A stretch of 49,355 nucleotides of DNA, from NCBI GenBank assembly GCA_016219925.1, contig JACRJU010000010.1:96147-145501 (forward strand), read 5' to 3'. The translations under genes were made by a program, and so were the position numbers. The DNA is from Candidatus Uhrbacteria bacterium (lineage in GTDB: Bacteria; Patescibacteriota; Patescibacteriia; UBA9934; GWF2-40-263). The notes below the pieces were generated by a model, which ran no database searches, was not told where the DNA came from, and was given only the letters and a program-made list of their open reading frames with translations. Below are positions 25,860 through 34,903 of the stretch, in pieces. Each line of letters starts with the position of its first letter. Within the stretch, counting starts at the first letter, position 1.

Positions 25860-28169
25860 TTATTTTGAAATCCAACTGTCGTCTACGACCTCTTCCCAAT
25901 TGGTTTCTTCCTCATCTTCTTCAGGAGTTTCTTCCTCGGGCTCTTCTGTTTCATCTTCTGTCATCTCGATCCCCGGTTCTTCCTGGCCTCCCCATGCTTC
26001 TTCGTAGTCATCTTGCGCCACCGGCATACCTTCTTTCAAATCTCCGCCTGGCGGCCAATGGCTGATCAAAACTTCGCGTGGCTTTGAACCGTCCTGCGGA
26101 CCGATCACTCCAGCTTGTTCGAGCAGATCCATAATGCGCGCGGCACGCGAGTAGCCGATGCGAAGTCGGCGTTGTAACAAAGACGTGGAGGCCTTGCCAG
26201 CTTCCAGAGCGACACGAATACAGTCCTCAAACATCGGGTCTGAATTTTCCGGATCGTCAAAGACAGTTCCCGCTTTCGTGATTTCTGTGATGGCCAAATT
26301 GTAATCAGGCTCACCGCCTTTTTGACGCAAAAATGAAACAACGCGTTCCAATTCGTTTGAAGATACAAACGCGCCTTGCAAACGCTTGGGCTTTGCGAGC
26401 TCGGCGCTCGTGAACAGCATATCGCCACGCCCGAGCAATTTTTCTGCGCCAGATTGATCGAGAATCGTGCGCGAATCGGTTTGTGAAGCTACGGCAAAAG
26501 CCGCGCGGCCCGGGATGTTGGCTTTGATCAGTCCGGTGATGACATCTACGCTTGGCCGCTGGGTGGCGAGCACAAGATGAATACCCACCGCTCGGGCCAT
26601 CTGCGCAATGCGGACGATTGTCGCTTCCACTTCCCGTCCGCTCGAGCTCATCAGATCGGCCAGCTCATCAATCAGAACAACAATTTTGGGCATCCGCTCT
26701 TCGACTTTTGCGTTGTAGTCATCAATGTTGCGAGCTTGATGTTTGGAGAGCATGTCCAAGCGTCGCTCCATTTCGCGCACCGTCCATTTTAGCGCGTTGA
26801 CCGTATCATCCACACTTGTAATGGGCGGCACCAGAAGGTGAGGGATGCCGGCATACGCGGTCAGCTCGACGCGTTTGGGATCAACCAAGATGAACTTAAG
26901 CTCATCAGGACCATTTTGATAGATGAGAGAGATGATAATGGTGTTAAGGCAGACGCTTTTTCCCGAACCCGTTGCTCCAGCCACAAGCAGGTGGGGGAGT
27001 TTATCAAGCGCGATCATCCACGTGTTTCCGGACACGTCCTTCCCCATCGGGACCGACAACAGACTCGTGCGTTCGCGGTAGGGTTTGGATTCAAACAGAT
27101 CGCGCAGGGTGACGGTTGCGACTTTGGTGTTGGGTACCTCGATGCCTACAAGCGACTTGCCGGGGATGGGGGCTTCCAGACGAATGGGATGGGCGGCCAG
27201 CGCAAGCGCGAGATCATTTTGCAAACTCACGATGCGAGCGATTTTCACCCCTTGAGCTGGCCGCAGGGTATATTGCGTGACCGTGGGACCGACGGATGTT
27301 TCTCCCATTTCCACATCAATGCCAAATTCTCTAAAGGTCTTTTCGATGATCTGTTTATTGCGCTCGATGTCGCCGGATTGCGCTTTGGAGGTTGAACGAT
27401 CAAGCAGAGTGAGCGGCAGGGTAATCTGTCGGCGCTTGGAAGTCGCCAAAAGCGTTTCGGGTTGAGCGTGCGCGACAACAGGTGTTGTATGGAATTCGTG
27501 CTCTTCATGCTCCGGTTCGACGGATTCCTCTTCTTCATCCTCGCCGTCTTGTTCATCTTCCTCTTCTTCGATAGTCTCCTCTGGAGTTCGCGGTTCATGT
27601 CGTCCAAAAAAAGCTAAGAGGTTAGTGAAATAAATGTGAATGCCAAACAAGGAACGCAACGAAGTGTTAAAGATGAGCATGATCGATACAAACAGGACCG
27701 CGAGCGTTACGACGAGCGCTCCCCAATAACCCATGATGTGGGGGAGCATCAAGCCGAGAAATTGTCCAAGCAGACCGCCTGTTGAAGTGAGGTCTTGCGT
27801 GAACGGCTCTGGGCGATTGACGAGCAAGAGGTTAAGTGTGGCATTGAACGAAAGGAAAAAGAAAAACAGTCCGAGATAATTCCATGAAGAAAAGGTGCCG
27901 CGTTCGGGATAGGAGAGCGTGGCGCCGATCATGATGAGGACCAACGGAACGAGGAAACGATCAAAACCGAAAAATTGGGTCAGGCCGGAGTTGATCCACG
28001 TGCCCAAACTTCCAGCGATTTCAAAAAACGACAAGGACATGAGCGCGCTAAGCGCAAAAAGCAACACCACGATGATGCCGCGTTTGGTTTCAGGATTAAG
28101 CTGGATCCACACGGGGGAGGATTCTTTTTCTTCCTCGCGTTTTGTGGAGCGACGTTTTCGACGAGCCAT
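25860..28169 (-). CDS. ftsK: DNA translocase FtsK/SpoIIIE
   Basis: Four N-terminal TM helices; HLLVAGATGSGKSVCLNTIIISLIYQNGPDELKFILVDPKRVELTAY; C-terminal gamma winged helix LLQRRLRIGYSRAARIMDLLEQAGVIGP. Confidence 0.97.
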   Translation of the reverse strand: MARRKRRSTKREEEKESSPVWIQLNPETKRGIIVVLLFALSALMSLSFFEIAGSLGTWINSGLTQFFGFDRFLVPLVLIMIGATLSYPERGTFSSWNYLGLFFFFLSFNATLNLLLVNRPEPFTQDLTSTGGLLGQFLGLMLPHIMGYWGALVVTLAVLFVSIMLIFNTSLRSLFGIHIYFTNLLAFFGRHEPRTPEETIEEEEDEQDGEDEEEESVEPEHEEHEFHTTPVVAHAQPETLLATSKRRQITLPLTLLDRSTSKAQSGDIERNKQIIEKTFREFGIDVEMGETSVGPTVTQYTLRPAQGVKIARIVSLQNDLALALAAHPIRLEAPIPGKSLVGIEVPNTKVATVTLRDLFESKPYRERTSLLSVPMGKDVSGNTWMIALDKLPHLLVAGATGSGKSVCLNTIIISLIYQNGPDELKFILVDPKRVELTAYAGIPHLLVPPITSVDDTVNALKWTVREMERRLDMLSKHQARNIDDYNAKVEERMPKIVVLIDELADLMSSSGREVEATIVRIAQMARAVGIHLVLATQRPSVDVITGLIKANIPGRAAFAVASQTDSRTILDQSGAEKLLGRGDMLFTSAELAKPKRLQGAFVSSNELERVVSFLRQKGGEPDYNLAITEITKAGTVFDDPENSDPMFEDCIRVALEAGKASTSLLQRRLRIGYSRAARIMDLLEQAGVIGPQDGSKPREVLISHWPPGGDLKEGMPVAQDDYEEAWGGQEEPGIEMTEDETEEPEEETPEEDEEETNWEEVVDDSWISK

Positions 28170-28224: not shown

Positions 28225-28253
28225 TTGACAAAATGGTCATTTTGTGATATCTT
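28225..28253 (+). promoter_or_regulatory. Sigma70 promoter with operator-like palindrome in the spacer
   Basis: TTGACA - 17 nt - TATCTT; perfect inverted repeat ACAAAATG GT CATTTTGT at 28228-28245. Confidence 0.75.
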
Positions 28254-28259
28254 GTTTGG

Positions 28260-28375
28260 TCTTGAACATTTGAATTACAGAGCATTCGCGTTTCTGGAGA
28301 GAGTCGCGGATGCACAAAAAAGTCCCATGTTTGGCCTGAATTCGGCTTATTCTCTCCAGACATGGGATTTTTTTC
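28260..28375 (+). ncRNA. Structured leader / attenuator-like RNA upstream of GC-rich operon
   Basis: Hairpin GCATTCGCG/CGCGGATGC (28282-28290/28305-28313); loop TCTGGAGAG (28293-28301) complementary to CTCTCCAGA (28352-28360); terminator TCCCATGT...ACATGGGA + T-run (28323-28374). Confidence 0.65.
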
Positions 28376-28415: not shown

Positions 28416-28709
28416 ATGGTTGAGGTGTTCGTGGCGTTTCGGGGTGGGGTGGCTCACGCCCTGCCCGAATTCGAGGATCAGATGATCGAGACGCTCGGCG
28501 CCGAGCCGGCCGAGACGGTCGTCGGGTGTGAGCCCGCGTTCACGCGCATGGATTCGCACACGACCGCGTACTTGGTCGCTCGCAGCTACGGTGGCTCGAG
28601 CGTCGCGGACGGCTTCAGCCAGCCGTACTCGGAGTCGGAGCGCGACCGCGGCCGCTACCCCAAGCGGTCGTGGAAGCGCTACCGGCGTGAGCAGTACCGC
28701 GCCGCGTAG
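28416..28709 (+). CDS. GC-rich orphan protein (97 aa), hypothetical
   Basis: AAAGGAGG SD; MVEVFVAFRGGVAHALPEFEDQMIETLGAEPAETVVGCEP...; strong GC3 bias; basic C-terminus. Confidence 0.75.
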   Translation: MVEVFVAFRGGVAHALPEFEDQMIETLGAEPAETVVGCEPAFTRMDSHTTAYLVARSYGGSSVADGFSQPYSESERDRGRYPKRSWKRYRREQYRAA

Positions 28710-28770
28710 CGGTTCGTGGGGGGGTCGGTTGAGTCACACCGGCCCCTCCCGTAGCATCTTCATTCAACCC

Positions 28771-28787
28771 GTCGCACTTCGTGCGAC
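28771..28787 (+). promoter_or_regulatory. Perfect hairpin abutting the SD of the 28797 gene
   Basis: GTCGCAC TTC GTGCGAC immediately followed by AAGGAGG. Confidence 0.6.
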
Positions 28788-28796
28788 AAGGAGGAC

Positions 28797-28991
28797 ATGA
28801 TGGCCAAGAAGGCCAGGCGTTCCCAGCCGGTCCCGGCGCCGAAGGAAGACGGCAACGTCATCCACATCGAGCTGGGACCCATGAAGTTTCGCGCCCCCAT
28901 TCTGCCGGGCAGGCGCCACCACACTCGCGAGCGCGACGTGCTCACGGGCAGGCGGCGCAACCCCAAGCACAAGGGGCGTCAGTGCGACTAA
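28797..28991 (+). CDS. Small basic GC-rich orphan protein (64 aa), hypothetical
   Basis: AAGGAGG SD; MMAKKARRSQPVPAPKEDGNVIHIELGPMKFRAPILPGRRHHTRERDVLTGRRRNPKHKGRQCD. Confidence 0.7.
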   Translation: MMAKKARRSQPVPAPKEDGNVIHIELGPMKFRAPILPGRRHHTRERDVLTGRRRNPKHKGRQCD

Positions 28992-29083
28992 CCCAAACCC
29001 CTCGACAAGCTCGGGGGATCAAAAAGGAGGAACTTGAGCTGTCCGACGTCAAGACAGCTCGCTCACTTGGCAGATAACGCTCG

Positions 29084-29338
29084 TTGTCTTCCAAGCTAGG
29101 CGATTCTATCTTTAAAACCGTTTATGGAGGACGAGAACCCCACACGGCGTTTCCCCGATGCAAACAAGGTTTACACTTTCTTTGCACCGAGCGGATGCGT
29201 CGCGCTCTTAATGCCCATGGCTTGCCTGGGCCACTGGAGAGCATTCTCGACCTCCATGAGCGGTTTTTTGATCTTTGCTATCTGGACGCCGGTCTCGATG
29301 ATTACTATCATAGGAAAGCCTATTGTTTGAGAAGGTGA
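29084..29338 (+). CDS. Possible small protein (84 aa), hypothetical; reading frame uncertain
   Basis: ...ALNAHGLPGPLESILDLHERFFDLCYLDAGLDDYYHRKAYCLRR; non-ATG start, no clear SD; competing ORF 29124-29330 encodes a hydrophobic segment. Confidence 0.3.
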   Translation: MSSKLGDSIFKTVYGGREPHTAFPRCKQGLHFLCTERMRRALNAHGLPGPLESILDLHERFFDLCYLDAGLDDYYHRKAYCLRR

Positions 29339-29340
29339 TT

Positions 29341-29394
29341 TGCCGCAAGAGCAGGAGAGAGCTTTTGCGGGAGGTCGTCTTCGTAACAGAAGAC
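29341..29394 (+). promoter_or_regulatory. Tandem hairpins in leader of the 29433 gene
   Basis: CCGCAAGAGC...GCTTTTGCGG and GTCTTC GTAACA GAAGAC. Confidence 0.5.
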
Positions 29395-29432
29395 ATCTGT
29401 CCGTTCCGTCACCGCTTCATCAAGGAGGAGAC

Positions 29433-30881
29433 ATGAAGCAAAACAAAGTCCCTGATCCGGTGGTCGCAAAGCCGGTCGGGCGCGTCATCGTGACGCCATC
29501 ATCTTCAGCGCCGGAGCGCATTGAGTTTCGGCCGGCTCTGGCCAACACAAGTGGCCCTACCGAGGTTCTGCCCGTCACCCGCGACATCGCGGGGCCGGTC
29601 GAACTTCGGCCGCTCATCCCTCCGCGCCAACCTCGCACGGCCCCGCGTCCGAGGCCTCGCCCTGTGCGCGAGGAACCTCGCCACTTGCCTCCGCCTCGTC
29701 TCACCCCCATGGGCGGGACGCTGGCAGACGAACTGCGCGGCAAGATCGAGGAAGCTCGCCTCAAGGGCGACGCTCGCGGTCTGGCTCGAGCGGCAGCGGC
29801 TGGGGCCGCGATCGGTCTGGATGATCCGTTCGCCCAGGCTGTGCGCAAGTCGAGTGACCAAAAGCGTGCCGCGAAGTTCGCTGGCGCGGTGAAAGCCGCT
29901 CGTCAGGCGCTCGCGACCGCGCGCGCGATGAGGTCCGAGCTCTCGATCGAACGTGCGGTCGAGGAGTTGCGTCGCCATCTTGGCGTCGCCAGCAAGCTCG
30001 ACAACAAGCGGCGCGGCAAGGCCACTCTGCTCGAGCTCATCGGCACCAGCGAGGAGGAGCTCGATCTGCTCCCGATCCGCTTCTTCACGACTGTCACGAT
30101 CGTGCCGGTCGACTACGAAGCCCTGTGCCGGGCCCAGAGCGCGCGCGATCCGGACTTCAACGAGAAGACTCCGGTCAGCGCGACCGCCACCTACGAGCTC
30201 CGCCGTTCGCGCGAGTACTCAAGGGGTCATCGGCCCACGGAGCGCTCGACCGCTGTCGGTGAGCGGCAGGTCGTGGTCGTCTCGATCTCCGGCGCGGCTC
30301 CCAACGGACCGATCCGCACGATCGAGCCGGGCGAGCCCATCTCGGGGCCACCACTCCCCAAGATCATCTACCACTCTGGAGAGCAGTTCGGTCCCAAGCC
30401 GTTTCTGCTCATGCCTGATGACCGTCTCGCCTTCACGGGTGAGATCGGTGGCGAAAAGATCAAGCTCATGGGCGAGGGGCAGTTCGCGCTCATGTGTCGC
30501 ATCCCGGAGTGGGATCGTGGGTGGGGGTACTACCCACTCAACTCCGACAACAAGTACGACCCCCACAGGCCGTACCTGTGCACCCCCGAAGGCTCCTTCA
30601 CGACCGTTCTGCCCAACGAAGGTCGGATCGTAATGGAGAAGTACGTCCAGGAGCCGCTGTTCCTCTTCACCCACGAGGTGAGGGCGGAGCGCTACATCTA
30701 CCTGGCTGTGCTCATGAAGGCCGGGAACGTCGTTGTCTACGAGGCGCCTTCGTCTGGCGACGTGGACGTGTCGGAAGGTAATCTCATCGAAATCGCCTGT
30801 GGGTTTACCCCCGCACGCGAGGAAGGTGAGCTTGCAGTCCTCACGACCAAAGCGGACACGGCGCAGCCGGCCATCGTCTGA
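29433..30881 (+). CDS. GC-rich orphan protein (about 482 aa), Pro/Arg-rich N-terminus, unknown function
   Basis: Internal ATG of the 29340 ORF with AAGGAGG SD; MKQNKVPDPVVAKPVGRVIVTPSSSAPERIEFRP...; strong GC3 bias. Confidence 0.8.
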   Translation: MKQNKVPDPVVAKPVGRVIVTPSSSAPERIEFRPALANTSGPTEVLPVTRDIAGPVELRPLIPPRQPRTAPRPRPRPVREEPRHLPPPRLTPMGGTLADELRGKIEEARLKGDARGLARAAAAGAAIGLDDPFAQAVRKSSDQKRAAKFAGAVKAARQALATARAMRSELSIERAVEELRRHLGVASKLDNKRRGKATLLELIGTSEEELDLLPIRFFTTVTIVPVDYEALCRAQSARDPDFNEKTPVSATATYELRRSREYSRGHRPTERSTAVGERQVVVVSISGAAPNGPIRTIEPGEPISGPPLPKIIYHSGEQFGPKPFLLMPDDRLAFTGEIGGEKIKLMGEGQFALMCRIPEWDRGWGYYPLNSDNKYDPHRPYLCTPEGSFTTVLPNEGRIVMEKYVQEPLFLFTHEVRAERYIYLAVLMKAGNVVVYEAPSSGDVDVSEGNLIEIACGFTPAREEGELAVLTTKADTAQPAIV

Positions 30882-31106: not shown

Positions 31107-31134
31107 TTGCCACAACTCAAAAAAAGACTACAAT
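31107..31134 (+). promoter_or_regulatory. Sigma70-type promoter of putative ncRNA
   Basis: TTGCCA - 16 nt - TACAAT; predicted start about 31141. Confidence 0.55.
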
Positions 31135-31140
31135 ATGGTG

Positions 31141-31352
31141 TGCGTTCGCCTGCGGGAGGCTGCGGGGCAGGGTACGATTTTTCCGAATAAAAACAGCGAA
31201 CATCGTTGTGTCCTTACGGATGCGACAAAATCTCTCTCCTCATGTTCTGATGTTTTGACTCGGGACTCTATCGTGGCTCCGCTTCGCAGCCTTTGGCAGG
31301 CGAGCGATTGTGGATAATTTTAGACAATAGACGCCATATGGATGGCGTTTTT
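31141..31352 (+). ncRNA. Putative structured ncRNA, 6S-like architecture
   Basis: Closing stem 31143-31164 with 31285-31306, inner hairpin GTTGTGTCC TTAC GGATGCGAC, intrinsic terminator ACGCCA...TGGCGTTTTT (31331-31352). Confidence 0.5.
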
Positions 31353-31411
31353 GCTTTTTTAAGCGAAAAAACCAATATCTTGACAACTTCCATGGGATGT
31401 CCGTTTGGCTA

Positions 31412-31440
31412 TTGACGGGCTAATTTCCGCATGGTAAGAT
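31412..31440 (+). promoter_or_regulatory. rpoBC promoter candidate
   Basis: TTGACG - 17 nt - TAAGAT. Confidence 0.6.
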
Positions 31441-34600: not shown

Positions 34601-34903
34601 CAGCAGCCGCTTGGGGGAAAAGCCCAGTTTGGCGGACAACGATTTGGAGAAATGGAAGTGTGGGCTTTGGAAGCCTACGGCGCGGCTCACACCCTTCAGG
34701 AAATATTGACCATTAAGTCTGATGATGTGCCCGGTCGCTCCAAAGCGTACGAGGCGATCATTAAAGGGGAGCCGATTCGAAAGGTCAACATTCCGGAATC
34801 CTTTAACGTGCTCGTGCGTGAACTCAAGGGACTCTGTTTAGATGTGGAACTGATGAAAGATAACAAAAAGGTCGACCTCCCAGGGGAGAAGCAGAGCAAA
34901 TAA
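31649..34903 (+). CDS. rpoB: DNA-directed RNA polymerase subunit beta
   Basis: RpoB motifs throughout (FIVDEF..., [21 protein letters not shown]); start chosen at [15 protein letters not shown]. Confidence 0.97.

Follow-up and report, generated by a model that had tools for sequence, protein, structure and literature searches.

The gap between ftsK (25860-28169, minus strand) and rpoB (plus strand, ending at 34903) raises the question of which RNA is made from it and what that RNA might do. The window, i.e., the whole stretch of 49,355 nt analysed here and to which all positions refer, comes from an 874-kb Patescibacteria genome (G000). Across the order, the two genes are still neighbours in most of the relatives whose loci could be located.

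Promoter, fold, and terminator of RNA1

Between the two genes lies a predicted RNA, termed RNA1, with the following parts.

28225-28253, plus strand: sigma-70-type promoter, TTGACA-17-TATCTT, with TG before the -10 element
Within 28225-28253, plus strand: inverted repeat ACAAAATGGTCATTTTGT in the promoter spacer
28258-28374, plus strand: RNA1, predicted RNA of ~115 nt from the start site to the end of the U-run (MFE, homologs, covariance model R1)
28282-28290, plus strand: 5' arm of hairpin P1, GCATTCGCG (pairing check, covariation)
28291-28304, plus strand: loop L1 of P1, TTTCTGGAGAGAGT / UUUCUGGAGAGAGU, carrying CUGGAGAGA
28296-28303, plus strand: near-invariant octamer GGAGAGAG of L1, unchanged across 16 aligned homologs
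28305-28313, plus strand: 3' arm of P1, CGCGGATGC (pairing check, covariation)
28316-28332, plus strand: 5' arm of the terminator hairpin P2, an A-run and then GUCCCAUGUUU (fold, covariation)
28351-28360, plus strand: 3' strand of the pseudoknot, UCUCUCCAGA, partner of L1 at 28293-28302 (in all 22 homologs, a contiguous match of 6 bp or more, G.U allowed)
28358-28374, plus strand: 3' arm of P2, AGACAUGGGA, and U-run (fold, covariation)

The promoter, which the earlier note on this DNA had overlooked, is near-consensus and strong and implies a start near 28258-28260. Promoters of this type (TTGACAAAA-N7-TTTnTGnTA; 28225-28249 and 15 other places) were found at 16 sites in G000 and at none in a reversed control; their spacers are A/T-rich and often palindromic, GTTC is frequent near the start site, and the genes that they precede are unrelated. 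Since the promoter type is general across G000, the palindrome was rejected as a special operator. A role of RNA1 as the rpoBC leader was also rejected because a separate promoter at 31412 serves rpoB and a further RNA (RNA3, see below) intervenes.

The RNA1 stretch has an MFE of -46.9 kcal/mol (z = -5.5; equally good shuffles, 0/200), and covariance model R1, built with the G000 sequence included, gave E = 2.3e-18 for the G000 copy. P1 has 9 pairs in G000, one of them G.U, and all coordinates and letters given for this hairpin by the earlier note were confirmed, as were its intrinsic terminator and its structured RNA ahead of GC-rich genes. The terminator stem is formed by TCCCATGT (28323-28330) and ACATGGGA (28360-28367), preceded by the A-run and followed by T7 at 28368-28374, and P2 embeds UCUCUCCAG. 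At the sequence level, a promoter and a Rho-independent terminator bracketing ~115 nt correspond to an intrinsically terminated sRNA (~50-250 nt, without a conserved ORF). No Rfam 15 family, be it of riboswitches, leaders, sRNAs, or 6S RNA, reached the gathering score with RNA1, and a relaxed search (E up to 10) gave nothing but chance miRNA and snoRNA matches far below the cut-off, in line with the earlier statement that no known riboswitch class could be recognized.

L1 is complementary to a strand of the terminator hairpin. A 9-bp match between TCTGGAGAG (28293-28301) and CTCTCCAGA (28352-28360) had been described before; its positions are correct, and its length is 10 bp (28293-28302 with 28351-28360). 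This complementarity was reached by 5 of 5000 dinucleotide shuffles and exceeds chance. The final nucleotides of the pseudoknot strand, AGA, are also part of the top of the P2 stem, so that the non-overlapping pseudoknot is GGAGAGA/UCUCUCC with 7 bp, which can coexist with the complete terminator.

Homologs and covariation

A DNA search returned similar stretches adjoining ftsK in relatives, and the regions upstream of ftsK in 30 genomes showed the same arrangement with other stem letters. The GTDB family to which the window belongs is represented by 43 genomes, and in 20 of them, R1 detects one copy of RNA1 at E of 1e-3 or better. Two degenerate copies (G013, G014) lie at the same locus, and by coordinate comparison, all 22 homologs adjoin ftsK and/or rpoB. 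Outside the family, an even sample of 287 class genomes gave no convincing match; the R1 matches obtained there (best E 1.5e-3) and those in G011, G043, and G072 from an order-wide search were dismissed as noise, the placeable ones being off-locus or without the loop match. The exact pattern TCTGGAGAG-N40-70-CTCTCCAGA occurs in at least 118 stretches of the GTDB contigs, mostly from random taxa, and the matches listed include Uhrbacteria contigs and one Parcubacteria-group bin. Where genes have been inserted between ftsK and RNA1 (G022, G002), the promoter and RNA1 shift together; in G032 and G001, insertions split the promoter from RNA1, which stays beside what follows, and this counts against a stand-alone unit. 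Judged from sequence, RNA1 is a real, undescribed, and lineage-specific RNA of one GTDB family among those sampled.

With the arms of the 22 homologs aligned by hand, standard pairs made up 97% of P1 (8 pairs) and 95% of P2 (10 pairs), and double-change cells numbered 76 in P1 (shuffle mean, 17.6) and 65 in P2 (15.6), values never reached in 1000 shuffles. Manual alignment is biased towards structure, and therefore the sequence-only MAFFT alignment of 9 sequences (A2) is important. In A2, the covariation score was 0.373 vs 0.03-0.11 for slid controls (0/500 shuffles), 94% was paired, and both-sided changes were seen at 13 pairs vs 6.1 expected, with the slid controls collapsing. Covariation of the helices, a check named by the earlier note, was thus found for both P1 and P2. 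The letters of P1 and P2 change massively with the pairs kept; GGAGAGAG and its cis partner hardly change.

The complementarity of L1 and the CU strand reaches at least 8 contiguous bp in 19/22 homologs (G.U allowed). In A2, none of its 7 non-overlapping pairs varies, and with the two strands nearly fixed, covariation is absent there; support for the pseudoknot consequently lies in kept complementarity and not in compensatory change. Wobble replacements are present in G025 and a two-sided change in G013. In G014, the complementary strand is instead a CUCUUU in the apical loop of the terminator, which makes the geometry a true kissing one. G007 and G014 have an eroded cis pseudoknot, with 5 and 4 Watson-Crick pairs, respectively. 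Self-closure of L1 as UCU-GGAG-AGA could account for part of the conservation of the loop. The kept complementarity makes it very likely that the loop-terminator pseudoknot exists.

Downstream genes and RNA3

Three open reading frames follow the terminator.

28416-28709, plus strand: first downstream ORF, 97 aa, SD GGAGGAGAG, with a homolog at the same place in G001 of the same genus
28797-28991, plus strand: second ORF (64 aa), a small and basic protein that ends in GRRRNPKH..., with homologs in the same gap of six relatives
29433-30881, plus strand: third ORF, 482 aa, with same-gap homologs in many relatives

No Pfam or NCBIfam match was found for the downstream genes in the window. The first two ORFs share amino acid identities of 0.38 and 0.56 between G000 and G001 with alignment scores far above shuffles; as they are homologous, the downstream operon is probably real. 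Several homologs of the third ORF have an N-terminal CxxC...CxxC. The stretch 28416-30881 (plus strand) appears to be a variable operon of fast-evolving proteins that recurs in altered form between ftsK and rpoB across the family, the types being an acidic GDEELASVATA protein, a basic GRRRNPKH protein, and a protein of ~450 aa often with CxxC pairs. A structured stretch within it, RNA2 (~29113-29270, plus strand; z -6.9), has a long closing stem GUUUAUGGAGGACGAGAA/UUCUCGACCUCCAUGAGC, a U-run, and no Rfam match; similar stretches occur in G001, G006, G024, and G032 and partly in G004, G022, G027, and G035.

Beyond the operon, just upstream of the rpoB promoter and ~2.9 kb downstream of RNA1, lies RNA3.

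31107-31134, plus strand: promoter of RNA3
~31155-31295, plus strand: RNA3, rod-like conserved RNA (fold, compensatory change, class-wide matches)
~31227-31241, plus strand: unpaired AAAAUCUCUCUCCUC of RNA3
~31329-31355, plus strand: terminator of RNA3

RNA3 folds into a rod (z = -5.2) with compensatory change in 26/40 consensus pairs and an unpaired AAUCUCUCUCCUC that is invariant in the alignment, and it has no Rfam family. Matches were obtained in 29/241 sampled class genomes from several families and, at a stricter threshold, almost nowhere else in the phylum. Where placeable, RNA3 usually adjoins ftsK, recA, or rpoB, and in G043 and G046 of the sister family, a promoter divergent from ftsK leads straight to it. 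By these comparative measures, RNA3 is a real RNA and probably the more important RNA of the ftsK-rpoB locus.

In all 18 genomes where both RNAs were read, the L1 octamer GGAGAGAG is the exact complement of CUCUCUCC of RNA3 or the two overlap by at least 8 Watson-Crick pairs; the number of such pairs between L1 and RNA3 rises to 9 in both G014 and G035 and to 12 in G028. The match persists where the cis pseudoknot is weak (G007, G014), with duplex energies of -14.0 to -23.8 kcal/mol for L1-RNA3 vs -5.8 to -15.9 kcal/mol for the cis pairing. The octamer retains its last G even in several homologs with an A opposite it in cis; there, this G is explained not by the cis partner but by RNA3, which always offers C. 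This is a post hoc match of a purine-rich with a pyrimidine-rich tract, such tracts match easily, and its chance is estimated at roughly 0.002 to 0.03. RNA3 hardly varies, so that covariation cannot probe the pairing, and the degenerate homolog G013 apparently misfits it. The complementarity suggests RNA3 as the trans partner of RNA1, with a purine segment set against a CU-rich unpaired segment of another RNA as in sponge or two-faced sRNAs.

RNA3 was also considered as a genome-wide binder of SD sequences and rejected, as three exact GAGGAGAGA-N-ATG sites vs one in the control were counted, from which nothing follows. In G028 (L256, ~380-405 in the gap), the first ORF is preceded by a P1-like hairpin that carries GAGAGGAGAGAG, lacks the terminator, and holds a 12-nt perfect complement to the RNA3 of that genome.

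Function and comparison with known RNAs

RNA1 has about an even chance of being a base-pairing sRNA of the RsaI/RosA type, with its own promoter and terminator, a loop binding RNA3, and leak-through into the variable operon. It would be transcribed from its own promoter and ended at its own intrinsic terminator, the purine loop L1 and the CU strand UCUCUCC hiding each other in the pseudoknot. Acting via base pairing like RsaI or RosA, it would bind the unpaired CUCUCUCC of RNA3 through L1, by which RNA3 would be sponged or switched, and transcripts reading through the terminator would supply the short variable operon behind it. This sRNA reading, ranked first, is supported by the lack of an antiterminator, a hardly displaceable terminator, the non-conserved first genes, G024 (see below), and the joint movement of promoter and RNA1. 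Tentatively, the ftsK-rpoB gap of these reduced Patescibacteria could hold a two-RNA switch made up of RNA1 and RNA3, in which the RNA1 loop would toggle between its own CU strand and RNA3; within such a switch, CUCUCUCC might, with similar reserve, be anti-Shine-Dalgarno-like and RNA3 antagonised by RNA1 in one family.

Ranked second, and clearly the less probable, is regulated attenuation of the variable operon, where the pairing of L1 with the CU strand, or the taking of L1 by RNA3 or another factor, would alter read-through. In most genomes, an ORF with an SD begins roughly 35-65 nt past the terminator and no consensus promoter separates the two, which makes RNA1 look like a leader as well; G005, G012, G017, and G031, which lack RNA1, run the same promoter directly into related genes, and the P1-like hairpin of G028, with GGAGAGAGU and no terminator, stands immediately before an ORF. 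Attenuation is opposed by the finding of one dominant fold and no antiterminator alternative in the 22 homologs, and by the first downstream genes, which differ between genera. G024 keeps RNA1 with no protein gene ahead of RNA3 and rpoB, a gene loss that may be recent. Moreover, the pseudoknot shares no more than the uppermost few pairs with the long P2 stem and can therefore hardly block termination at equilibrium. The earlier note had offered conditional termination or a compact stand-alone ncRNA, and both remain viable.

It is improbable that P1 and P2 are constitutive terminator or insulator hairpins beside ftsK with the loop match as a by-product. Termination in both directions would shield the divergent ftsK unit as well, and P2 forms a strong stem on either strand; however, an insulator needs neither P1 nor the invariant loop, and both are kept in 20 genomes despite massive stem change. 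Least probable of all is a ligand riboswitch of a new class with a metabolite pocket of P1 and pseudoknot acting on the terminator, for although the loop is strongly conserved and the pseudoknot adjoins the terminator as in ZTP and fluoride riboswitches, no Rfam match was found even at E 10, the conserved nucleotides are limited to two simple complementary strings and form no spread pocket, the downstream genes share no pathway, and the RNA is present in only one of the bacterial families sampled. The description as riboswitch-like is accordingly unsupported, there being no antiterminator seen in 22 homologs, a pseudoknot compatible with the terminator, and no common metabolic type among the downstream genes.

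ZTP and fluoride riboswitches carry a pseudoknot next to a terminator. Like these and the preQ1 terminator riboswitches, RNA1 has, ahead of an ORF, an upstream hairpin in contact with one located at the terminator or close to it; unlike them, it has no Rfam match and no competing antiterminator that could be seen, and its pseudoknot and terminator are compatible.

For RsaI, also named RsaOG, a pseudoknot between G-rich and CU-rich regions has been reported, and RsaOG is an Rfam family. In Staphylococcus, a CU-rich unpaired stretch of RsaI pairs with ribosome-binding sites and a G-rich stretch with CU-rich tracts of other sRNAs (PMC8383071, PMC9266662). RNA1 is likewise small with two complementary faces, the purine loop and the CU strand, but its CU strand lies inside the terminator hairpin, it belongs to another phylum, and its targets are putative. 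No sequence or covariance-model match of RNA1 to RsaI/RsaOG was found (Rfam families, E up to 10). RosA of Bacillus subtilis sponges RoxS via G-rich regions complementary to C-rich regions of partner sRNAs (PMC8216469). RNA1 resembles it as a predicted stand-alone RNA with its own promoter and terminator and a G-rich region complementary to a partner; it differs in that its G-rich part is a single loop, accompanied by a CU strand of its own, whereas RosA is ~229 nt with three G-rich regions and no C-rich region, and no homology was apparent by eye. By analogy, RNA1 would at most work like RsaI or RosA, and membership in either family is not claimed.

Among the papers searched in full text, none relevant to structured or small RNAs of Patescibacteria/CPR was found, nor any described RNA of the lineage; RNA1 would add a new candidate to the regulatory RNAs of a branch of life with almost none known. 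With a comparatively validated RNA family at a fixed locus and a more widespread candidate partner, RNA regulation in these hard-to-culture bacteria would become directly testable from metatranscriptomes. Set beside RsaI and RosA, a regulatory loop locked into its own terminator would be a compact variant of the sRNA-sponge theme.
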